Source: a virus
DNA length: 30,404 bases
Direction: 5' to 3' (one strand)
IMG/VR virus record: IMGVR_UViG_3300037337_000047
Coordinates: 1 to 30,404 of that record
A program made the translations under genes and the position numbers. This document shows, in pieces, positions 5,310 to 22,236 of this stretch. Within the stretch, counting starts at the first letter, position 1, and every line of letters starts with the position of its first letter. Under the pieces are notes generated by a model. It had not been told where the DNA came from. It was given only the letters and a program-made list of their open reading frames with translations, and did no database searches.

Positions 5310-6350
5310 TTACCCGTTGTACAAAACGTTTAGGTCTTGATTTGTAACGAAAGTGGTCATCATTTGTTGGTTTTTCAAAAAACGAGACTTAGCACCATTC
5401 GCCATTTGTCCAATTTCTAAAGAAGATAAATCCCCCGATAAGTCATTCAAAACTTTTAAGTGTTTCGGCATTGATGCGATTCTAAATCCTACTAATGGGT
5501 AGAATTTCACTTCGATTCCATTGTACGTAACTCTTTGATTTGCTCCTGCTGGATTCTCAATTAAAAAAGGCATTTGTTGAGAAACGGTAGCCAATTTATT
5601 AGCCGCTACAATTAATTGCAAATCCGTTAATGGTGCAAAAATGTATTTTGGTGCGCTAATTTTATTAATCACTTTTGATGGAAAACCTAAATAGATTTTC
5701 GCATATTCCGCGTCAATGTTTGAAGCCGTTACTGTTGTTCCGCCAACTTTGATATAATCTCCAAGTCCTGCGCCTGCTACTGCTTTTGAAAGCGAATCGT
5801 TGTAAAGCATCCTAACTGGCAAAGAGTCAAACAATGTAGTTGGCATTGCTGCCACTAATGTTTTTGCACCCGCAGAAATTGATCCTTGACCCGCTCCCGC
5901 AGTTAATGCTGCAATAGCTGTTTTTGTTGCGGCTGTTGCACCATTCCAAATTTTTGCGTCAACATCCTCCCCAATTGCGGGGATCACTTGAATTAAAACG
6001 TTTCTGTCAAATTCGTCCGAAATATTATTGATTGCACCTGGTGCCATCGACTCATCAAATCGAGTTCCTTTCAAACTTTCTTCATCAAAAGTATCGCTAA
6101 ATTCAATCAATGAAAGTGCTACTGGCGTACGTTGTACCGCTAAAGTAATTGAGCCGTCTGCTGTTACCGCATCGCTTGATCCCGCTTTCATCGTAACGCC
6201 TACTTTACTTTCGTAAACGTTTGCCCCCGATTTGAAGTTTGATTGAATGTCAATTAATCCTTCTTGAAAGGTCAAGGCGTCTTGATAAACGTATTCTTGA
6301 ATTTCGGCTAAGTCTTTTCTGTCCTTTATGCCTGTGTAAGTTACTGCCAT
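5310..6350 (-). CDS. Major capsid protein
   Basis: A protein of 346 aa with composition and order expected of an HK97-fold major capsid protein. It has an extended charged N-terminal region (about 1-40) and a beta-rich segment with ESKVGVTMKAGSSDAVTADGS. A helix-rich middle contains EFDRNVLIQVIPAIGEDVDAKI, similar to a spine helix. A late KYIFAPLTDLQLIVAANK region precedes the end. It lies just downstream of the protease/scaffold gene (9-nt gap) and just before a strong terminator, the normal setting for the most expressed virion gene. No cleavage site can be assigned by eye. Confidence 0.8.
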   Translation of the reverse strand: MAVTYTGIKDRKDLAEIQEYVYQDALTFQEGLIDIQSNFKSGANVYESKVGVTMKAGSSDAVTADGSITLAVQRTPVALSLIEFSDTFDEESLKGTRFDESMAPGAINNISDEFDRNVLIQVIPAIGEDVDAKIWNGATAATKTAIAALTAGAGQGSISAGAKTLVAAMPTTLFDSLPVRMLYNDSLSKAVAGAGLGDYIKVGGTTVTASNIDAEYAKIYLGFPSKVINKISAPKYIFAPLTDLQLIVAANKLATVSQQMPFLIENPAGANQRVTYNGIEVKFYPLVGFRIASMPKHLKVLNDLSGDLSSLEIGQMANGAKSRFLKNQQMMTTFVTNQDLNVLYNG

Positions 6351-6359
6351 AATTTCTTT

Positions 6360-7286
6360 TTATTTATTTTTATTAAATTGCATTTTTTCGTAATTACTCA
6401 TTTGAGCAAAAGTTTTCGGTTTTTCATTTGGCAAATTAACTATTGCTAATTTTTCAGCTTTAAAAACTGCTAAATCATTTATAACTTTTGCCTTTTCTGA
6501 TTTCATAGTTTCTAATGTTGCAGCATCCTCAACATCCTTTGCTTGCATCGTTGCAAGTTTTTCTTTAAGGTCTGCATTTTCTGCAACTACTGCATCATAC
6601 ATTGTTTGCAATTCAGCTAACGGATCGGCTGGTGCTTCGACTTCTGGCACTTCTGCCATATCTTCCTTTTCTTTATCATTCATCATAAATAGCGACTTTG
6701 CAACCTCTATGACCTCTGCTATAAAGGTCTTTTTTTCTTCTGTATTCATACTTATTTCTGGGTTAATTATTTCGTAATCTAAGAATGCTTCTAAACTTAT
6801 TCCATCTACTTCGCCTGTTTTAATAAAGTTTTCCCAGACGTCATCGTTTTCAATTTTAAACCCTAAAATCAAATCCCGCGCCTGAACGTCTTCCATCATT
6901 AACGTTTTGCTTTTGTCTAGTTCTGGATTTAAAACTATCCAACTTTCAATAGGGTAAACGTCCGTTATTGATTCATCTGAATGGTTTAAACTCATTTTCG
7001 CAAGCCCTTTATTATTGCTTTTGAAATAAGATTGTTGCATCTTTTCAACCTCCTCTGAATCAAAAGTAATGTAGCCCGGCTCGCCGTTTATATCTTTTCT
7101 AAATATTTCTTTATTTGGTCGCATCGCAACCGAATAGATAATTCTCTTTTCTTGATTTGCAAAAAACACGGGTTTGTTTGATTCATCGGCAAACTTTGAG
7201 AGTTTAGTTTCAACTGCCGCCCCAAGTACAATTGAAAAACAATTTACATCTGTACCCGCTTTTAATTTCGCTTTATAAACTTTCAT
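6360..7286 (-). CDS. Prohead protease (XkdF-like) fused to a scaffold-like tail
   Basis: A protein of 308 aa in two parts. Residues ~1-170 match the XkdF/S78-type serine protease layout: SLNHSDES with His102, PIESWIVLNPELDKSKTL (about 112-130), and GEVDGISLEAFLDYE with candidate nucleophile Ser164. Residues ~185-290 are acidic and coiled-coil (AELQTMYDAVVAENADLKEK and following), as in scaffolding domains. The product would chaperone capsid assembly and then cleave scaffold and itself inside the prohead. A terminator and a possible promoter lie just upstream, so capsid genes may form a separate transcription unit. Confidence 0.75.
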   Translation of the reverse strand: MKVYKAKLKAGTDVNCFSIVLGAAVETKLSKFADESNKPVFFANQEKRIIYSVAMRPNKEIFRKDINGEPGYITFDSEEVEKMQQSYFKSNNKGLAKMSLNHSDESITDVYPIESWIVLNPELDKSKTLMMEDVQARDLILGFKIENDDVWENFIKTGEVDGISLEAFLDYEIINPEISMNTEEKKTFIAEVIEVAKSLFMMNDKEKEDMAEVPEVEAPADPLAELQTMYDAVVAENADLKEKLATMQAKDVEDAATLETMKSEKAKVINDLAVFKAEKLAIVNLPNEKPKTFAQMSNYEKMQFNKNK

Positions 7287-7291
7287 AGATA

Positions 7292-7323
7292 CAAAGATTG
7301 TGTTATTGGTTTGTAAATATCAA
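7292..7323 (-). promoter_or_regulatory. Possible promoter for capsid gene cluster
   Basis: Minus strand shows TTG (7323-7321), a 21-nt gap and AATCTTTG (7299-7292), seven of eight matches to TAnnTTTG. It lies between the terminator at 7343 and the protease ATG at 7286. The -7 box is so close to the ATG that the mRNA would be nearly leaderless, which lowers confidence. Confidence 0.35.
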
Positions 7324-7335
7324 AATGTGGCACAC

Positions 7336-7361
7336 AAAAAAACCACTCGATTTGAGTGGGT
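7336..7361 (-). terminator. Terminator closing the tail operon
   Basis: CCACTC (7343-7348) and GAGTGG (7354-7359) form a hairpin, extended by A/T pairs. On the minus strand it is followed by seven T. It comes about 25 nt after the small gene at 7385-7525 and separates tail genes from capsid genes. Its core is 16/17 identical to the terminator at 29196-29212. Confidence 0.8.
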
Positions 7362-7384
7362 TTAATCTCCTTTCTTTTTAATGG

Positions 7385-7525
7385 TTAAGACTTCTTATTA
7401 AAATACAAAAACAATGCTTCACAAATAATTTCGCTAATCGAACACCCTCTTTTTTTGGCTTCTAAACGTAATTTTAAAACATACCACATTCTTGGATAAG
7501 CTACGATTCTATTTTCTTTTGCCAT
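7385..7525 (-). CDS. Small ribbon-helix-helix-like protein
   Basis: A protein of 46 aa whose ATG overlaps the tape-measure stop by one base (TAATG). After a short basic N-terminus, the stretch RIVAYPRMWYVLKLRLEAKK, then GCSISEIICEAL, looks like a beta strand followed by two helices, the pattern of small ribbon-helix-helix DNA-binding proteins. It is the last gene before the terminator at 7343 and could feed back on late transcription. The fold call is from pattern only. Confidence 0.55.
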   Translation of the reverse strand: MAKENRIVAYPRMWYVLKLRLEAKKRGCSISEIICEALFLYFNKKS

Positions 7526-9519
7526 TAGATTGAGTTTGAATTAATTTTATTATTATCCAATTGTTGCGCATCACTTACGTCTTTACTGACTACAAAAGCT
7601 TGGATTGGTGGTTGTGAATTTAGATTGTTTGCCACCGTGTTCCCGATTTGATTTTCGCTACTCGCCTGAAATGCTACTTGTGGAGTTGCGCCCGCTGCAC
7701 CTGCCCCTCTTGCTCCGCCACTTGTACCGCCACCGCCTTCAACTGAACCGCCACCTAATGACTGCAAAGCTTTTTTAGTAGATGCAATTGTACTTGCCAC
7801 CCCAATTGCGCCCTGTGCTGCATTTAAAGCAATTACAGGAATAGCACTTACTCCGCCAGTTGCAATTGCTTGCGGTGTAGCCAACGCACCAACTATAGAT
7901 GTGTTTGTTGCCGCTACTTGTTTTCCAACAGCAACTGCGCCCTCTGCAATCATTGCAGCCTTTTGTATTTTTTTACTTTTGCCGAATACCTGAGATAAAA
8001 ACGCGACTGCTTGACCGGCTAAATTTAGTCCTTGCTCTTGTATTTCTCTTTTTTGTTGAAGTTTAGCGCGTTCAATTTCAACTTCTTTATCAGCTAAATC
8101 TTTGGCAGCCGCAACCTTTTCCTCTGATTCTTTGTCAAATATAACTTTGTTTTCGTCAATTCTTTTTTGTGCTAAATCCCGCTCCAAAGTAGCGAACTTT
8201 TCAGCGTTTAAAATAGTGATACTTTCAATGTCAATTCCTTTTTGTTTTAGGATTTCAACCTCTTGATTTGCTCGTTCTTTTTGGCGTGCTAATTTTTGCT
8301 CTTCGGTTTTATCTAATAAATCCTCGTTTGCAATTCGCAAAGCTGTTTCTTTGTCAATTCCTTCTTTTAGTAATGCCAAACGTGCATCTTCAATTACTTT
8401 ATCGGATGCTGCTTTTGCAGCGGCTGCTTCTTTATCTAGTGCCTTTTGTTCGTTACGCAAGCTATTTGCGTTTGCAAGTTGCTCTGATTCTTGACCTGAA
8501 ATACGTTCATTTATATCTGAAATTTGCAATAAAGCCGCTGCCCTTTCATCTAGGTTCGCGCTACTTTTACCTTCTTGAGCAATTCTTAAATCTGAAACTG
8601 TTTTAGCTAAATTTGCTAAACGTAATTCTTCTAAAGATTGTTGCTTTAAAACAGCTGCGAGTTGTTCGTTTAATTGGGCTCTTTTTGCAATAGATAAATT
8701 ACTGTCATTGTCTCTTTTTTGCCGTATCTTTTCGGCTTTGTTTTGGAAGTCTAATTGTGTTTGTGCTGAAATACGTCTTGCATCTACTAACTTAGCTTCT
8801 GCGTCTGCAAGTTTTCCGCTTGCCTTTACATTGCTATCTACTGCATCTGTTAAAACTTTCAGTCCGTTCGCAGCAGCGTCTAAGCCTAAGGCTCGCAATC
8901 CTTTTTGTAAAAGCACGGATGTTGATAAAATTACATTTCCTGCTGTTTTAAAACTTTTAATTATATTATCAACTAAAAATGTAGCAACTGGTTCTAACAC
9001 TTTCAATAGTCCGCTAAATAATCCGCTAATAACCGCTAATCCTTTTCCGAATTTATCTCCGTTGGCTTCGGTACTAAAGAATGCTTTTCCCAATAATGCA
9101 ACCGCCCCCACTATGACTGCTAAAACCGCGCCTATTGGATTTGCGACAATAGCAAACATTTGAACAAGCAAAGCTTTAAAGCCACTAATTGCACCGCTTA
9201 TCGGGTTGTCTAATCCTTTTATATTTTCGCCTAAACTTTTTGTAGATTTTTCTGCCTTTTGTTGCGTGTTGCTTAGCTTTTCAACTTGTGATTTAGCTTC
9301 CTCCGTTGCGATAGACGCCTTTTTTTGTGCTATCTCTAAATTATTAATTTCTTCAACTGATTTACCCGTTGAATTTGCTAACGCTTCGTTCGCCTTTTTT
9401 AATTTAATTTCAGCTTCCTCAACTTTAATAGTAGCCGATTCTAACTTTCGAACTTCCTCGGCGGTTTTGTTTGCGTTAGTATCAAACTGTATCTTTATTT
9501 TTTGCTCTTTGTCTTCCAT
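7525..9519 (-). CDS. Tail tape measure protein
   Basis: A protein of 664 aa with a long coiled-coil N-terminus (about 5-95, rich in K, E, A). Next comes a hydrophobic block of about 50 residues (FKALLVQMFAIVANPIGAVL onward, about 112-150). A second long coiled coil spans about 230-500, and the C-terminus is glycine- and alanine-rich. This layout is typical of tape measure proteins, which set tail length and are ejected with DNA. At ~1.5 angstrom per residue it would give a tail of about 100 nm, consistent with a siphovirus. It is coupled to the upstream gene by an overlap at 9519. In canonical siphoviruses it precedes the distal tail proteins, whereas here it follows the likely hub proteins. 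Confidence 0.8.
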   Translation of the reverse strand: MEDKEQKIKIQFDTNANKTAEEVRKLESATIKVEEAEIKLKKANEALANSTGKSVEEINNLEIAQKKASIATEEAKSQVEKLSNTQQKAEKSTKSLGENIKGLDNPISGAISGFKALLVQMFAIVANPIGAVLAVIVGAVALLGKAFFSTEANGDKFGKGLAVISGLFSGLLKVLEPVATFLVDNIIKSFKTAGNVILSTSVLLQKGLRALGLDAAANGLKVLTDAVDSNVKASGKLADAEAKLVDARRISAQTQLDFQNKAEKIRQKRDNDSNLSIAKRAQLNEQLAAVLKQQSLEELRLANLAKTVSDLRIAQEGKSSANLDERAAALLQISDINERISGQESEQLANANSLRNEQKALDKEAAAAKAASDKVIEDARLALLKEGIDKETALRIANEDLLDKTEEQKLARQKERANQEVEILKQKGIDIESITILNAEKFATLERDLAQKRIDENKVIFDKESEEKVAAAKDLADKEVEIERAKLQQKREIQEQGLNLAGQAVAFLSQVFGKSKKIQKAAMIAEGAVAVGKQVAATNTSIVGALATPQAIATGGVSAIPVIALNAAQGAIGVASTIASTKKALQSLGGGSVEGGGGTSGGARGAGAAGATPQVAFQASSENQIGNTVANNLNSQPPIQAFVVSKDVSDAQQLDNNKINSNSI

Positions 9520-15028: not shown

Positions 15029-16297
15029 TCATAACAGCATTGGTGTTTTGCGTGATATTTTTATAATAGCTGCGTATCTAAATGCATCTATTGCGTGATT
15101 AAATTGGTCAATCGGTTCGTCCTTTTTATTGTCCGACCATTTATAATTATTTAGTTCAAATATAAGGTTTTTTGATTCAGGCGTAACAATTAACTCATAA
15201 TTTAAAATGCTCATTATTGAATCTCTAATCTTTGGCTTTTCGCACGGCTTTATATTCAATCCTCTATTTGCCAAATCCTTAATAAACATTTTCGCCTGAC
15301 TGTCGCACCATATACGACTATGTCCTACAATTGGTTTAATCGCATCTACAATGGTATCTGGTATCTGATTTGATTTGTAAAAAACTTCCTGCAAGTAGAT
15401 TTTCTTTTGCTTTTTGTCAACCGATACTTTTACAACTGCAGTACTATCATTGTAGCCTACATCCATACCAAAAGTATCTTCGTACTCCGTTGAAACAAAT
15501 TCGCCTATCTCATAATCAAAAACAACGCCTTCTGCCGTGTCTCTGAACGCTCCTAAAACAATATTTTTGTACTCCTTGTACCCTTTGATTATTTTCTTGC
15601 TTAAATCAGCTCTTTTGTCTTTTTCAGTTTCTAAATACAACTCATAAAGCAAACGCAAACTTTCGTAATCCTCCCAATTCGAGGGTGACATATTTTCTTT
15701 GCCGTTGTCTAAATAGTTTGTATGAATGTACATTATTTTACCTATAACCCCGTTAAATCCTTCTGGTATAGTTTTGTACCATTGTTCGTACATCCAATGG
15801 GTTTTAGTAGGTGGATTAAAAACAATCATTGAGATACCTTGCAAATCAGTCGCACGGACCGAACGTTTAACTTTTTTCCATTCGTCGTAATTAGTCAATT
15901 CTTCACCTTCCTCTGTTATAAACATAGAATAGTCTTCCAATGATTTTAACTTTGCCGTTTGCGTTCCTACGCTTGTTTTCTGACCAGTAATTGATATTAA
16001 TCCTTTATTGTGTTTGGTTTTGTAGTCATTGTTAGCAAAAGTAAATTCATCTTCAATTCCTAGCAATTCCATACGGTTATCTAGTGCTAAAGTTATTGAG
16101 CGGTCTGTAGAAGACATAGTTTGTCTTGTAAATAATATACGGTGGTTGTAATCTGCAGCTGCTAAAGGCACAAAACAAGTAACTGCAAAAGTTTTTCCGC
16201 TGTCACGACCACCTGAAATAAGAACGGTATCTACTTCTGGATAGATACCGTTTAAAAGTTCAAATAATGGATGATATTTTTTTGAAAAGGTTATCAT
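15029..16297 (-). CDS. terL: Terminase large subunit (PBSX/Terminase_3 type)
   Basis: A protein of 422 aa, normal for this family. The ATPase half has Walker A GGRDSGKT (29-36) and Walker B with catalytic acid MFITEEGEEL (125-134). The nuclease half has GMDVGYND (277-284, Asp279), WCDSQ (330-334) and HAIDAFRYA near 405, the expected RNase-H-like acidic residues. It drives ATP-dependent packaging of DNA into proheads and cuts the concatemer. The start overlaps the small-subunit stop by 4 bp. In this genome the portal lies 11 kb further downstream, unlike the usual terminase-portal pairing. Confidence 0.95.
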   Translation of the reverse strand: MITFSKKYHPLFELLNGIYPEVDTVLISGGRDSGKTFAVTCFVPLAAADYNHRILFTRQTMSSTDRSITLALDNRMELLGIEDEFTFANNDYKTKHNKGLISITGQKTSVGTQTAKLKSLEDYSMFITEEGEELTNYDEWKKVKRSVRATDLQGISMIVFNPPTKTHWMYEQWYKTIPEGFNGVIGKIMYIHTNYLDNGKENMSPSNWEDYESLRLLYELYLETEKDKRADLSKKIIKGYKEYKNIVLGAFRDTAEGVVFDYEIGEFVSTEYEDTFGMDVGYNDSTAVVKVSVDKKQKKIYLQEVFYKSNQIPDTIVDAIKPIVGHSRIWCDSQAKMFIKDLANRGLNIKPCEKPKIRDSIMSILNYELIVTPESKNLIFELNNYKWSDNKKDEPIDQFNHAIDAFRYAAIIKISRKTPMLL

Positions 16298-16563
16298 TTT
16301 TTTATAAAAACAATCGGTTGCCTTACTGTGGTTTTAATTTCGCCTTGCATTTCAATTGCTTTTAAAGTTGGTAGGCAAAATTTAGCAAGTTCAATGGTGT
16401 ATTTGATTCTTTCGACTTCTTTTAAAGCGTCAAAATCAGCTTGTAGCTTTGTAATATTATTTTCCACAAGCAATTGGAACGCATCCCGAATAGATTTGTT
16501 TTCTTTGTTTGGCGTTCCTTTAATTCGTCCGCCTTGTTTAATTTGTCCTTTAGGTGCTGCCAT
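16294..16563 (-). CDS. Putative terminase small subunit
   Basis: A protein of 89 aa with the N-terminal signature GGRIKGTPNKENKSIRDAF (about 11-29), common in small phage proteins preceding the terminase large subunit. The rest is helical (LLVENNITKLQADFDALKEV, ...LAKFCLPTLKAIE). Small subunits recognise packaging sites on DNA. It is shorter than classic TerS proteins and has no obvious canonical helix-turn-helix, so the name relies on the motif and the 4-bp overlap with terL. Confidence 0.7.
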   Translation of the reverse strand: MAAPKGQIKQGGRIKGTPNKENKSIRDAFQLLVENNITKLQADFDALKEVERIKYTIELAKFCLPTLKAIEMQGEIKTTVRQPIVFIKK

Positions 16564-17520: not shown

Positions 17521-17874
17521 TCATATTAATTTTTTAAATTCATCTAGTGATCGAATCAAAATGTAATAATGCCCGAATTCCAAAACTCTACTTTCAAACT
17601 CTTTTTGGCTTTCGCTTTGGATTCCTTTGTGAGTTTTTAATTCTACAAATATCACTTTATTTTTCAAAATTAATATTAAATCAGATACTCCGGCCAAAAC
17701 TCCCATTCCTATAAATTTACTATTGTTTCTGGTCGCTTCGTTTGGAACGCAGAAAATTAAAATATTATTCAATTTACAATAATTGACAATCTCTTTTTGG
17801 ATTGTCGCTTCGGACTTTTTGCCTAAACATTGAAGCTGCGATATGGTCTTTTTTTTAATATTTTCTAATTTCAT
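17521..17874 (-). CDS. VRR-NUC domain nuclease
   Basis: Using ATG 17874 the protein has 117 aa. A longer frame reaches 17919 but those 15 codons lie over a copy of the iteron, so the shorter start is preferred. Numbered from the longer frame, it shows SEATIQKEIVNYC (36-48), GVLAGVSDLIL with Asp80, and IFVELKT with Glu93 and Lys95, the D...ExK core of VRR-NUC/Holliday-junction-resolvase-like nucleases of phages. Such enzymes can trim recombination or replication intermediates before packaging. It lies between the iteron region and the late promoter. Confidence 0.8.
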   Translation of the reverse strand: MKLENIKKKTISQLQCLGKKSEATIQKEIVNYCKLNNILIFCVPNEATRNNSKFIGMGVLAGVSDLILILKNKVIFVELKTHKGIQSESQKEFESRVLEFGHYYILIRSLDEFKKLI

Positions 17875-17881
17875 GTTAAAA

Positions 17882-18147
17882 TGTTTACTTTTAGTGTTTT
17901 GTAAGTTATTGATTTTCAACGAATGTTTACTTGTAGCCTTGTTTACTTTTGTTTTTCAAACTTATTTCTATAATGTATATAATATGTCATTATGTGTGAT
18001 GTGTGTGTATTTATGCATTTCTATAAGGTTAAAGTTAATATTTATAGGCTACAAGTAAACATTAATACCTTAACCCTTATATCCATTGGCAAAAAACGTG
18101 TTTACTTTTAAAATTTTAAAAGTAAACAAAAGTAAACAAAGTAAACA
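17882..18147. other. Candidate replication origin: AAGTAAACA iterons and palindromes
   Basis: A noncoding stretch of about 270 bp between the nuclease and the primase-helicase gene. The 9-mer AAGTAAACA occurs eight times: on plus at 18053, 18120, 18130 and 18139, and on minus at 17882, 17924, 17940 and 18099 (leftmost bases). Two copies form a perfect 30-bp palindrome (18099-18128) and two others lie in an 18-bp inverted repeat (17922-17939 with 18046-18063). The space between is extremely AT-rich. Iterons plus palindrome beside the primase-helicase are typical of phage origins; a multi-site operator is the alternative. Confidence 0.6.
17957..17964 (-). promoter_or_regulatory. Possible -7 box inside iteron region
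   Basis: Minus-strand TAAGTTTG fits TAnnTTTG and would make a transcript into the nuclease gene through three iteron copies. No TTG lies at the usual distance upstream, so an activator would be needed. It may give the iteron-binding protein a second role as regulator. Confidence 0.3.
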
Positions 18148-18148
18148 T

Positions 18149-20341
18149 TTAAAACGGGACTTCTTGTGTCTCCTGGACCTTTTGAAAATCGTTTTTCTTA
18201 AATAATCTGTACCCTTTTTTTGTTTTTGAGCCAATACGCTGCATTTTTAATTCCATTTTATGTTTTACACAAATTCTTTTGATGTCGTATTTTGTGGCTT
18301 TATAAGAAAATTGCACGTTCATTTCGTTGCAAATTTCGCCTTGGTTTAAAATAACTTCATCGTTATGGTCTTCGGTTTGCTCGAACGAATAACGGCTAAA
18401 AAACAGATCTTCTGAAACCTCAATTTCTAAATTTTGCAATGTATTTTGATTCAAATAGTCAATGTCTTCTTTTGAAAAAATACGAAATTCAAAACCTTTT
18501 AAATATAAATCATGTGCGCATTTCAAAAGCGCATCTTTATCAAATTCCACCGCTTCGCTATATTTTACACTTTCAAATTCAACAGGAATCACCCTCCTAT
18601 TACCTGTTTCATCCTTTAGTACGCTCTTTTCGTTAGTCGTGCCACATAACATAGTCCTACGCTTCAAATCTACGTCTAAACGCCCGTATGGAAGCCTGAC
18701 TGTTATTTTGTTTTTCTCTGTAATTTTTTTAAAATTCTTAACGTCTTTGTGCGCCATTCCTCCAAATTCATCATTTAGCATAATCATAGACGTAGCCATA
18801 CGTTTTAGCACGTCTTTTCCACCCTCTTCCATACTTTCATCAATAAAGTATCTTCTTAATTCTTTGGGAAGCATATTTCTAAAAAAAGAAGTCTTACCGC
18901 TAGCTTGTTGACCACATAAAACCAAAACTAAAGGGCTAACTTCCTCGTGGTCATTTGGACTTATCCAGTTGTGGATGGCGCCAACGAGCCATTTTTTTAA
19001 CGCCCAACGATTAAACTCGTTGTAAGGTAAAATTAAATCTGCATATTTATCTATTTCATCGCCTTGGGCAGTGGATGTGTTGTTTTTAAAATAATCCTCT
19101 ATTGGTTGGTAGGTTTTAGCTTGCGAATTAAAAATTAATTGCGAAATATCGGTTGCGCTTACTTTAAAATCAAAATATTTCTTTGCGTGAATAGTAATTG
19201 AATTTATAATCTCATCATTCACCGGTTGCCCCTCAAATTCGTACTGTTGATTAAATCCATTTTTTGCAATTATGTAGTTTTCTTTTATGAACAAATCAAG
19301 TTTTACCGTATCATTTTCTTCATTATCTATGTTCTTTGCAAAGTTTTCTTTAGAGTCGATTAGCTGCTTAATGAACGCTTCATCGGTTGTTGTAGTGCCT
19401 AATATCTTAAGCGTTTCAATCACGCCTGCTGGTGTCATTATTTGACTGTTTGCTTTGCCGACTGCTACTCGTTTTATAATTTCTTTGCTTATAGGCGAAT
19501 ATAGTTCTATTCCAGCTGCCTTGGCGTGGTAGTAGAAAGTTGAAATAGTAATGCTTCCGCCTTTGCAAAATTTAGCGTATTGTCTTTCTATTCGGGAAGG
19601 CTCGTATTTTGTGCCATTTTGGCAAATAGTTTTAAAATATGTAAGTCCTGCATCTCCAAAATGCGAACCAATAGCAAAACCAATTTCGCAAAATTTTTGA
19701 TAGTCATCTTGGCAAAGGTCAATTCCTTTACTTTGGATTTGGTCCATAATAAAACTAAAGTCATCTTTTGCAAAGTAGAATGTTTCTTTTTTGACTTTTT
19801 TTGCTGGTGCTTTTTTTGCTTTAAAAGTTGCAGCGTTAGGGTTCTGGAAAATATCAAAATCATAAGAAATATAACGCAAACGTGATTTGTCCTTGCAACT
19901 TTGGTCGACGTCTACATCAAAAGTATCTGAATAATACTGCGCAAGTCCGTAAAACGACTCCAAAAATACATCTGGATTAATCTTTACAAAAACTACAAGT
20001 CCAGTTCCTGATACCGAACGATTAGAGCTAAAGGTGTATTTGTCTGCATCAATTCTTTTGCGTAATTCCGTATGAACATCGCAATCAATATCTAGTAAAA
20101 TCAACCCGTTCATTTCGTCAATATTAGCTACCGAACGGCTGTTTTGTTTCATTGTGCAACTACCAGTAATTGCAGGAAGTTTGCTTTTTATTTCGGTGTA
20201 CTTTTTTTTGTCTGACTTGTTTGCTCTGGCTTCAAAAATTAAACTTTGATGATCTCCATTTTTAACGAGCTCTACATATTTTGCAAAATCAATACTGATA
20301 TTGTCTTTATCGTTGTGGGTTTTATATTTTGAGAATATCAT
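18149..20341 (-). CDS. Primase-helicase: BT4734-like domain fused to VapE-type ATPase
   Basis: A protein of 730 aa. The N-terminal part (about 1-170) has GLILLDIDCD (79-88), SVSGTGLVVFVK (109-120) and CKDKSRLRYISYD (149-161), matching the BT4734/VirE-N type domain of Bacteroidota mobile elements with primase-like catalytic acids. Next is a PriCT-like helical part (about 190-280). The C-terminal virulence-associated-E ATPase has Walker A GQQASGKTS (477-485), Walker B MIMLNDEF (519-526) and CGTTNEKS (566-573). It probably initiates and primes phage replication. The adjacent iterons support an initiator role. Preceding gene ends 6 nt away. Confidence 0.85.
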   Translation of the reverse strand: MIFSKYKTHNDKDNISIDFAKYVELVKNGDHQSLIFEARANKSDKKKYTEIKSKLPAITGSCTMKQNSRSVANIDEMNGLILLDIDCDVHTELRKRIDADKYTFSSNRSVSGTGLVVFVKINPDVFLESFYGLAQYYSDTFDVDVDQSCKDKSRLRYISYDFDIFQNPNAATFKAKKAPAKKVKKETFYFAKDDFSFIMDQIQSKGIDLCQDDYQKFCEIGFAIGSHFGDAGLTYFKTICQNGTKYEPSRIERQYAKFCKGGSITISTFYYHAKAAGIELYSPISKEIIKRVAVGKANSQIMTPAGVIETLKILGTTTTDEAFIKQLIDSKENFAKNIDNEENDTVKLDLFIKENYIIAKNGFNQQYEFEGQPVNDEIINSITIHAKKYFDFKVSATDISQLIFNSQAKTYQPIEDYFKNNTSTAQGDEIDKYADLILPYNEFNRWALKKWLVGAIHNWISPNDHEEVSPLVLVLCGQQASGKTSFFRNMLPKELRRYFIDESMEEGGKDVLKRMATSMIMLNDEFGGMAHKDVKNFKKITEKNKITVRLPYGRLDVDLKRRTMLCGTTNEKSVLKDETGNRRVIPVEFESVKYSEAVEFDKDALLKCAHDLYLKGFEFRIFSKEDIDYLNQNTLQNLEIEVSEDLFFSRYSFEQTEDHNDEVILNQGEICNEMNVQFSYKATKYDIKRICVKHKMELKMQRIGSKTKKGYRLFKKNDFQKVQETQEVPF

Positions 20342-20347
20342 AATTTT

Positions 20348-21415
20348 TTAAATTTTAGATAACCATTGTTGGTAAATGTTTGATGCTATTTGCGCTGTCA
20401 TAACTGGAGGTACTGACATACCTATAAGATATGATGACTTGTTCTCTAAAAAATTATAATCTTTTGGAAAACTTCCGGTATTGCAATATTCATTTTTGCT
20501 TATTCTTATTGGCAAATCAAATTGAATATCACACCCTTTGCTTACAACGGTTGGGAAAACTTTATCTTTATGTATTATTTTTGTGTTAAAGTCTGATGTT
20601 TTACCATTAATTCTTTCGGTTATTTCTCCAAAAGAACTGTCTGATTTAATTCTTTGCAACCACCTTTTATAAGTTAATTTTTCTTTATTTATTGGTTTTC
20701 CTAAATTATCTGCATATTCTCCAAATTTAATTTTCTTTTCATTAAAAAACATTTGTATTTTTGGAATTTCAGTAAACATATCTGCAAAATGCAAAAATTG
20801 TGTTGCTAAATCTTTTCGTAAACAAATAAAGAAAACTCTTTCACGTCTCTGCGGAACTCCCATTTTTGAAGCATCTAATAAAAAGTGTTGACAATAATAA
20901 CCAGCTTTATCAAATTCTGCATAAATTTTACGAACGTAGGCTTTAGCTTCCCCCATAAGTAAACCTTTTACATTTTCAGCAACTACAACTTTAGGCTGCA
21001 ATTCTTTTGCTAAATCAATAAAATCAAAAAATAAAGTATCTAAAACCTGTTCAGCTAGACCTTCTCTAAATACCTTTTCTTTGCCCCAATCTTTTTTTCT
21101 ATTTCCAGCCATACTAAAAGAGCTGCATGGCGGCGAACCGTCTAAAATATCAAGGTTATAAAGTTCTTTTGGTAAATCTTTCCTTTTTGCAAAAGTCGTA
21201 ATGCTTTCTAAAAATGAAAATTTAGGATTGTGATTTTCTTTGTAAACATCAATCATTTTTTTATCAATATCATTATGTCCAATAACATCAAACCCTGCTA
21301 ATTTGTAACCCATTGTAGAGCCACCACCGCAAGCAAAACAACTAAACACTTTCCCTTTGTCTTTTGTGAAATTTGCATCTTTTAAATTCCAATTATAATT
21401 AAATTCTGTTTTCAT
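20348..21415 (-). CDS. C5-cytosine DNA methyltransferase
   Basis: A protein of 355 aa with motif I SCFACGGGSTMGYKLAGFD (25-43), motif IV SPPCSSFS with catalytic Cys97, motif VI AENVKGLL (146-153), motif VIII QRRERVFFI (189-197) and a C-terminal motif IX-X region ending GMSVPPVMTAQIA. The catalytic set is complete, so it should be active. No restriction endonuclease lies beside it, so it probably protects phage DNA from host enzymes. It is 2 nt from the second methyltransferase and both genes share an identical 19-bp start region. Confidence 0.9.
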   Translation of the reverse strand: MKTEFNYNWNLKDANFTKDKGKVFSCFACGGGSTMGYKLAGFDVIGHNDIDKKMIDVYKENHNPKFSFLESITTFAKRKDLPKELYNLDILDGSPPCSSFSMAGNRKKDWGKEKVFREGLAEQVLDTLFFDFIDLAKELQPKVVVAENVKGLLMGEAKAYVRKIYAEFDKAGYYCQHFLLDASKMGVPQRRERVFFICLRKDLATQFLHFADMFTEIPKIQMFFNEKKIKFGEYADNLGKPINKEKLTYKRWLQRIKSDSSFGEITERINGKTSDFNTKIIHKDKVFPTVVSKGCDIQFDLPIRISKNEYCNTGSFPKDYNFLENKSSYLIGMSVPPVMTAQIASNIYQQWLSKI

Positions 21416-21417
21416 AA

Positions 21418-22236
21418 TTAAAACAATATAGGGTTAATTTTTTCTAGCTTTGATTTGCAATATCCCAATTCTCGAAGCTCTTTCTTATCTGTTTTATTAG
21501 AATCAATTAATCTTTTTGCGTCCTTAAAAAAATCTTTTTTGATTTCAAAACCAAAACTTTTTCGTTCTAAATTTTCACAAGCGATTAAAGTAGTCCCGCT
21601 ACCAGCGCAAGGGTCAATCACTACATCGCCTTTGTCGCTAAAAATTGAAATTAAATTTTCTAAAACTTTAATTGGCTTTTGTGTTGGGTGTACTTTTTCT
21701 GTTTCTGTATCTCTAAACCAATCAAGGCAATTCATAACCATTTTACCGTTATTGTTAAATTTTGGTAGTTTGTCACGATACAAAATTACTGCATATTCGC
21801 AATTTCCAACTACTCTCATATTTGCTTTTAAAACTTGTGCTGAAAAGTTTTTACGAAATACTAAATTTATGTATTTATTCAATCCGTATTTTTTAGCTTT
21901 TTCGATTAGTTCAAATTGTTGTTCAAAGGCACAAAATACAATCATGCAAGGCGCTGCACCTTTTTCTTTTGGTTCGGGCCTTAACATTGTAGAGCAAAAG
22001 TGTAAAAATTCTGAAATTCTAAAATCTTTGTCCGTGTCAAAAAATTCTTTTCCTGCAAGTTTGGATTCTCCGTTTTTATGGTCTCCATTTTCATACCAGC
22101 TTGGATTGGAAGCATAAGCGTTTATTCCTAAATTGTAAGGAATATCCGCAATTATTAATTGCGCTTTTGGAACTGCATATCTTTTGTAGTTCTGGAAATG
22201 GTCGTTAAATAAGTTAGGCTTAAATTCTGTTTTCAT
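21418..22236 (-). CDS. Adenine-N6/cytosine-N4 DNA methyltransferase (beta class)
   Basis: A protein of 272 aa with catalytic motif IV DIPYN at 31-35 ahead of the AdoMet-binding motif I DPCAGSGTT at about 208-216. This order defines the beta class of N6/N4 methyltransferases. HPTQKP near 184, typical of the family, lies just before. DIPY instead of DPPY is a tolerated variant. Base specificity cannot be read by eye. Overlaps the helicase gene by 4 bp and precedes the C5 enzyme, so the pair probably gives double modification as anti-restriction. Confidence 0.9.
   Translation of the reverse strand: MKTEFKPNLFNDHFQNYKRYAVPKAQLIIADIPYNLGINAYASNPSWYENGDHKNGESKLAGKEFFDTDKDFRISEFLHFCSTMLRPEPKEKGAAPCMIVFCAFEQQFELIEKAKKYGLNKYINLVFRKNFSAQVLKANMRVVGNCEYAVILYRDKLPKFNNNGKMVMNCLDWFRDTETEKVHPTQKPIKVLENLISIFSDKGDVVIDPCAGSGTTLIACENLERKSFGFEIKKDFFKDAKRLIDSNKTDKKELRELGYCKSKLEKINPILF

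Follow-up and report, generated by a model that had tools for sequence, protein, structure and literature searches.

A putative replication origin beside the vapE gene of a Flavobacterium-type tailed phage, with iterons that switch together with the predicted wing of the proposed initiator

The stretch of DNA analysed here (hereafter the window) is a 30,404-bp virus record from IMG/VR of unknown completeness, and "whole genome" counts given below cover this record only. Between a nuclease gene and the gene for a VapE-type primase-helicase it carries a short segment dense in copies of one word, AAGTAAACA, and the question is what this segment does and which protein reads it. An initial annotation had proposed an origin bound by the VapE-type protein or by a host initiator. 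Our analysis indicates that positions 17882-18147 very likely serve as the replication origin in a tailed phage of the Flavobacterium type, with VapE as the binder; binding and origin firing are both inferred, in the absence of binding or replication data. The features of the locus are as follows.

17882..18147, no strand: putative replication origin, eight AAGTAAACA in two groups flanking an AT-rich core, with equivalent arrays in relatives
17882..17890, minus strand: iteron AAGTAAACA, nuclease-proximal arm (exact word search)
17924..17932, minus strand: iteron AAGTAAACA, within the 18-bp inverted repeat (word search and complementarity)
17932..17938, plus strand: TGTAGCC word in the inverted repeat, where TGTAACT-class relatives have a TGTAACC iteron
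17940..17948, minus strand: iteron AAGTAAACA (exact word search)
17959..18026, no strand: AT-rich core, limits approximate, kept similar within the window's clade as the iterons vary
18047..18053, minus strand: TGTAGCC word, partner of 17932-17938 (comparison with TGTAACT-class relatives)
18053..18061, plus strand: iteron AAGTAAACA, within the 18-bp inverted repeat (word search and complementarity)
18099..18107, minus strand: iteron AAGTAAACA, left end of the 30-bp palindrome (word search and complementarity)
18120..18128, plus strand: iteron AAGTAAACA, right end of the 30-bp palindrome (word search and complementarity)
18130..18138, plus strand: iteron AAGTAAACA, 10 bp past iteron 18120..18128 (exact word search)
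18139..18147, plus strand: iteron AAGTAAACA, adjoining the vapE stop codon (exact word search)
17521..17874, minus strand: VRR-NUC-like nuclease ORF, downstream of the putative origin (domain scan), without covariation with the iterons
18149..20341, minus strand: VapE-type primase-helicase of 730 aa, the proposed initiator, with BT4734-like_N, PriCT_2 and VapE-like domains and structure matches

The array itself and its position are observed directly. The word occurs exactly eight times in the record, four times per strand and always inside 17882-18147, whereas 100 dinucleotide shuffles of the window averaged 1.04 copies, the highest count being 4. Outside the segment the record holds no exact copy (many of them would have counted against an origin) and solely one-mismatch words, of which there are 29 in all against 25.4 expected, i.e. 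the chance level. The structural claims of the initial annotation all held: eight 9-mers within 266 bp, four per strand and none elsewhere in the window; a 30-bp palindrome (18099-18128, halves 18099-18113 and 18114-18128) and an 18-bp inverted repeat (17922-17939/18046-18063), both 100% complementary; and a location between the nuclease and primase-helicase genes. GC skew, which it had suggested as a check, follows the coding strand without a sign change at the array and is uninformative either way.

Read on the minus strand, the array begins at the vapE stop codon and ends 7 bp ahead of the ATG of the VRR-NUC-like gene. Two listed ORFs overlap it, one at 17843-18058 on the plus strand and the other a TTG-started extension of the nuclease ORF; no support for either as a gene was found. 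No RNA family was detected in the window with Rfam. Genes for a ResIII helicase, a YqaJ recombinase and a DUF3127 protein lie near vapE, and those on the other side of the array probably encode the terminase and structural proteins, as read from the ORF list and translations. Directly upstream of vapE (20348-22236) are two adjacent genes of 355 and 272 aa, which from their translations only might encode DNA methyltransferases. By VapE, its nearest relatives in culture are Flavobacterium phages.

Two details of the repeats are clarified by comparison with relatives. The 30-bp palindrome consists of an inverted iteron pair with an AT-only spacer in between, and relatives of the same or a close word class have an inverted iteron pair with a different spacer at this place, so that what is conserved is probably the inverted pair and not the palindrome. 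The two TGTAGCC words make up the inner portion of the 18-bp inverted repeat; origins of the window's class (AGTAAAC) have one TGTAGCC per arm, placed symmetrically at the TGTAACC position of the TGTAACT class. As a suggestion only, these words might be remnants of a former iteron word.

Related loci were gathered through VapE protein scans and alignments, yielding 77 distinct loci; a near-DNA search of phage records had given no match, hence the use of tblastn and IMG/VR. Among the 70 with enough sequence downstream of vapE, 53 feature a repeated 7-mer just 3' of the gene (p<=0.01 relative to Markov-resampled sequence), and in several loci without a significant word a gene is inserted there and the array appears once the insert is omitted. 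Weak or mixed arrays are seen in some relatives (L056, L058, L061, L069, L075, L110). The words differ by lineage and, when oriented, have a common core GTA[A/G] with variable flanks: AGTAAAC in the window's class, and TGTAACT, GGTAAAA, GGTAACA, TGTAACC, TGTAATA, TGTAATG, TGTAATT, GGTAATA, GGTAAGG, GGTAACC, GGTAACT and GGTAGTG among the others. The AT-rich core between the arms is conserved within clades, and stays similar throughout the window's clade, in which five words are in use. Conservation of the architecture and switching of the word are thus both shown.

A search for a tandem pair of the window's word returned 18 viral contigs, of which the 4 with at least 8 copies encode a VapE with the same C-terminal domain; the remaining 14, with 2-3 copies, encode no VapE with that domain, and most of the two-copy contigs were set aside as unrelated chance matches. 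Scans of genome contigs found nothing with query A1 and one Flavobacterium MAG with query A2. The layout was not traced past about 45% identity, since Nonlabens phage P12024L shows no more than a weak TGTAAT-like set 3' of the primase gene and Cellulophaga phage phi46:1 has no gap at that place. One relative, L014, encodes a chimeric VapE (5970-8135), about 39-52% identical to that of the window in its N-terminal third and about 85-100% in its C-terminal half, with a wing and iterons of the L004 type.

Clues on how VapE might read the array came from its predicted structure. A Pfam scan of the protein detected VapE-like, BT4734-like_N and PriCT_2 domains, a sub-threshold DUF5906 and nothing else; the Rep_3 and RepA_N domains typical of iteron plasmid initiators were absent. 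An AlphaFold model of the window protein, built with 58 sequences (mean pLDDT 76.6), predicts that residues 661-715 form a strand-helix-helix-strand-strand winged helix (pLDDT about 80), of which the hairpin 699-715 is the part that covaries with the iterons (see below):

18197..18361, minus strand: C-terminal winged helix, codons 661-715 (AlphaFold; strand 661-665, helices 667-677 and 684-693, strands 699-703 and 706-715)
18197..18247, minus strand: wing hairpin, codons 699-715, covarying with the word, residue 709 (K) giving the strongest single-column signal for iteron base 6

Among PDB structures, the model aligns with dsDNA-bound PriRep1 (7pds) over residues 340-719 with a Z of 13.7; this was also the sole convincing profile hit (E 1.6e-12; Foldseek 1.8e-9). 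The match to the SaPI5 primase-helicase (7om0) is much weaker, with a Z of 6.6 that is below the safe range on its own; structural matches of Z under 8 were not counted as evidence, and SaPI5 is mentioned as a weak match only.

VapE difference in 14-residue segments was compared with iteron-word difference over 61 loci, with close pairs defined by an N-terminal difference below 20% (n=311); pairwise rho and p values do not come from independent pairs. Among close pairs the signal peaks at residues 694-714 (rho 0.71 and 0.66), every other listed segment reaching 0.43 or less, and the median partial rho over all segments is 0.02. No such relation to the word was found in close pairs for the VapE N-terminus (rho about 0), VRR-NUC (0.03) or the ORF upstream of vapE (-0.01). 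The wing hairpin is the only segment tested that tracks the word. Close pairs with the same word differ on average at 3.4 of 18 wing positions and those with different words at 8.2 of 18 (again non-independent pairs), whereas the N-termini differ about equally in both sets (73 vs 81 positions, p 0.14).

A controlled test counted independent pairs on a tree built from VapE with the C-terminus left out, on which the word changes at least 24 times. In 7 of 7 independent pairs, lysine or arginine at residue 709 is accompanied by C at iteron base 6 (p=0.016), and a hydrophobic residue there by T in about 5 of 6, never reversed. Exceptions are F709 with G in two cases and the window itself, where K709 occurs with A rather than C at base 6, and therefore this trend does not amount to a full code. 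Our claim rests on close and independent pairs because per-column mutual information without phylogenetic control also gave high z values in columns outside the C-terminus.

Pairs of nearly identical proteins serve as natural experiments. VapE of L041 differs from that of L043 and L054 at 5 of 655 N-terminal residues and at 8 of 18 wing positions, with a change of word from TGTAATA to GGTAACC; L112 and L114 differ at 7 of 655 residues and 7 of 18 wing positions, with a change from TGTAATG to GGTAACT. A DNA comparison of L041 with L054 shows near-identity over the coding tail that follows the wing and over about 90 bp of the core, and differences in the wing and in both iteron arms; the same holds for L112 and L114, with tail and core nearly identical and wing and both arms different. 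That so many sites have changed together could be due to recombination with a donor sharing tail and core, as one possibility.

Other readings of the array were considered. It could be a packaging (pac-like) site bound by the terminase small subunit (gene 16294-16563, 1.3 kb away): the terminase genes are close, and TerS proteins can bind repeat arrays. Nevertheless, the window and L002 share all eight iterons although 72 of 88 aligned residues are different between the two TerS-region ORFs, and in 22 close pairs TerS distance does not follow iteron distance (rho 0.05, compared to 0.56 for the wing), which makes this reading very improbable. The array could also be an operator or promoter serving a phage regulator of the nuclease and late genes. 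The neighbouring genes are co-directional, the gap could hold a promoter, and initiators often autoregulate. Against this, among the segments tested the word is followed by the VapE wing alone, and a promoter and terminator scan was at chance (7 promoter-like matches vs 4.7 expected, Bacteroidota promoters not being modelled). An operator or promoter as such is therefore unlikely, and VapE binding could possibly regulate transcription in addition.

Many replicons use host initiators, and DnaA or a plasmid-type Rep of the host, the alternative binder of the initial annotation, might bind the array. This is very unlikely, as judged without a separate search for host DnaA boxes, because the word changes between phages nearly identical in other sequence: word and VapE wing switch in step where VapE is about 97-99% identical and the flanks nearly so. 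Finally, wing and iterons might correlate in the absence of any physical recognition, simply because a single recombination tract at the vapE 3' end carries both. They lie just about 50-350 bp apart, and in the L014 chimera C-terminal half and iterons are both of the L004 kind. However, in the L041/L054 and L112/L114 pairs the wing and both arms are different, with the intervening tail and core almost unchanged. Independent lineages pair a given kind of wing residue with one and the same base, and VRR-NUC on the far side of the array does not covary, so that a mere shared tract seems unlikely. An origin with VapE as binder remains the most likely reading because the wing tracks the word and near-identical pairs switch both. 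This part of the initial proposal is well supported by the arrays of relatives, the clade-conserved core and the wing covariation, though not by any binding or activity data.

The mechanism that we propose for VapE is carried over by analogy from SaPI Rep. SaPI Rep uses its C-terminal domain to recognise iterons that adjoin the helicase gene on the downstream side, and the isolated C-terminal domain of SCCmec Cch2 binds the putative Cch2 origin (PMC7581432). Likewise, the C-terminal winged helix of VapE, encoded by the adjacent gene, would bind the AAGTAAACA words, which the covariation supports in the absence of binding data. Copies of VapE would bind both iteron groups and assemble as hexamers, which would open the AT-rich core between the groups (a possible unwinding element) and then prime and unwind; hexamer loading, core opening and origin firing are all inferred. 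Recognition would be modular, the GTA[A/G] core being common to the family and the flanking bases being read by the wing hairpin at residues about 700-709; wing and iterons do switch together between lineages.

The architecture is SaPI-like and as such already known. As in SaPI-type Rep/ori systems, the array adjoins the stop codon of the initiator helicase gene in the window and relatives (origin status being inferred), multiple short iterons flank an AT-rich segment, the helicase domain is related to that of PriRep1 and, on a weak match only, of SaPI5 Rep, and the helicase, like SaPI Rep and Cch2, has a C-terminal DNA-binding domain (predicted here). What is probably new is a phage family in which joint switching of reader and sites is visible, with origin and binding inferred. 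Unlike SaPIs, this is a tailed phage of Flavobacteriaceae, with many words in one family and wing and word switching between near-identical proteins; no comparable series is known to us for SaPI Rep, the primary SaPI-origin papers not having been covered. In geminiviruses, iteron positions are conserved and sequences diversified among close relatives, with sequence-specific Rep binding (PMC12548392). The VapE family similarly keeps the place of its iterons and diversifies the words among close relatives, but with a dsDNA phage and a helicase winged helix instead of a circular ssDNA virus and an unrelated Rep. The gene order primase, iterons, VRR-NUC is common to the window and the cultured Flavobacterium phages snusmum and mumin (Muminvirus), which differ in having GGTAACC/T iterons; mumin and mymlan carry a nuclease insertion. 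No origin is annotated in the stretches of the snusmum and mumin records that were examined.

Nucleases within the putative origins of relatives add a further aspect. T5orf172/GIY-YIG genes (PF10544/PF13455) were found at the following positions, and none is present in the window's array.

L043 (mumin), 5741-6301: T5orf172/GIY-YIG gene inside the origin
L009, 4692-5261: same
L014, 8205-8777: same
L010, 8470-9051: same
L083, 5737-6309: same
L124, 5736-6311: same

Phage snusmum has the same VapE C-terminus and word as mumin without the nuclease. In these nucleases the C-terminal domain shares homology with the VapE C-terminus (hhalign 98.9%, E 1.8e-17, vs 0.6% for the nuclease N-terminus), and their wing resembles that of the resident VapE beyond chance pairing (7 loci, permutation p 0.007, hand-aligned stretches). 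A scan with the nuclease also found homologues, mostly beside iteron-like arrays, near an unrelated initiator composed of DUF3987 and a C-terminal HTH (L141, L142, L143, L145, L146, L151, L153, L155, L156, L159). The catalytic domains of the two groups are about 59% identical, and DUF3987-side nucleases end in an HTH homologous to that of their initiator (99.1%, E 4.8e-19), with weak cross-comparisons to the other initiator type (0.7% and 41%). The domain type matches the initiator at 8 of 8 and 9 of 9 loci (Fisher p 4e-5); these counts were made by eye, and the test is uncorrected for relatedness. Many DUF3987-side nucleases adjoin repeated words such as TGTAAAC, TGTAAAG, TGTAACA or ACTATACA, and in L155 the initiator lies downstream.

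Odn of phage ICP1 is a T5orf172 nuclease with the domain of a satellite initiator, and cuts the satellite origin in an iteron-dependent manner (PMC8263062, PMC10448857). As in Odn and Odn-like proteins, T5orf172/GIY-YIG is joined in relatives of the window to an initiator-like DNA-binding domain, and the defining combination of T5orf172 with a domain homologous to that of a replication initiator is present. Unlike for Odn, the gene lies inside or beside the phage's own origin, cutting is inferred only, and the domain corresponds to that in the initiator of the phage itself (a winged helix next to VapE, an HTH next to DUF3987) rather than to a satellite RepA_N. These nucleases might cut, home or drive word switches, all of which, including iteron binding and cutting, is inferred. 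A bolder reading, which on balance falls short of being probable, is that the iteron word is under diversifying selection from origin-reading nucleases: origin-resident T5orf172 nucleases with an initiator-type reading domain would cut rival phages sharing the word, and lineages would escape by a joint switch of wing and iterons.

These observations suggest a rationale for the domain architecture, in that origin-resident nucleases carry the DNA-reading domain type of the local initiator, whichever type this is. Origins of phages like that of the window are unannotated in the records examined, and the array signature, just 3' of the initiator gene and with a word tied to the wing, offers a possible means of predicting origins of metagenomic phages. 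The family provides natural near-identical pairs in which the reader and all sites have changed, allowing direct testing of the specificity of initiators for their origins and of its evolution. If the bolder reading were true, the way in which wing residues pair with iteron bases would amount to a readable recognition code for the whole initiator family.
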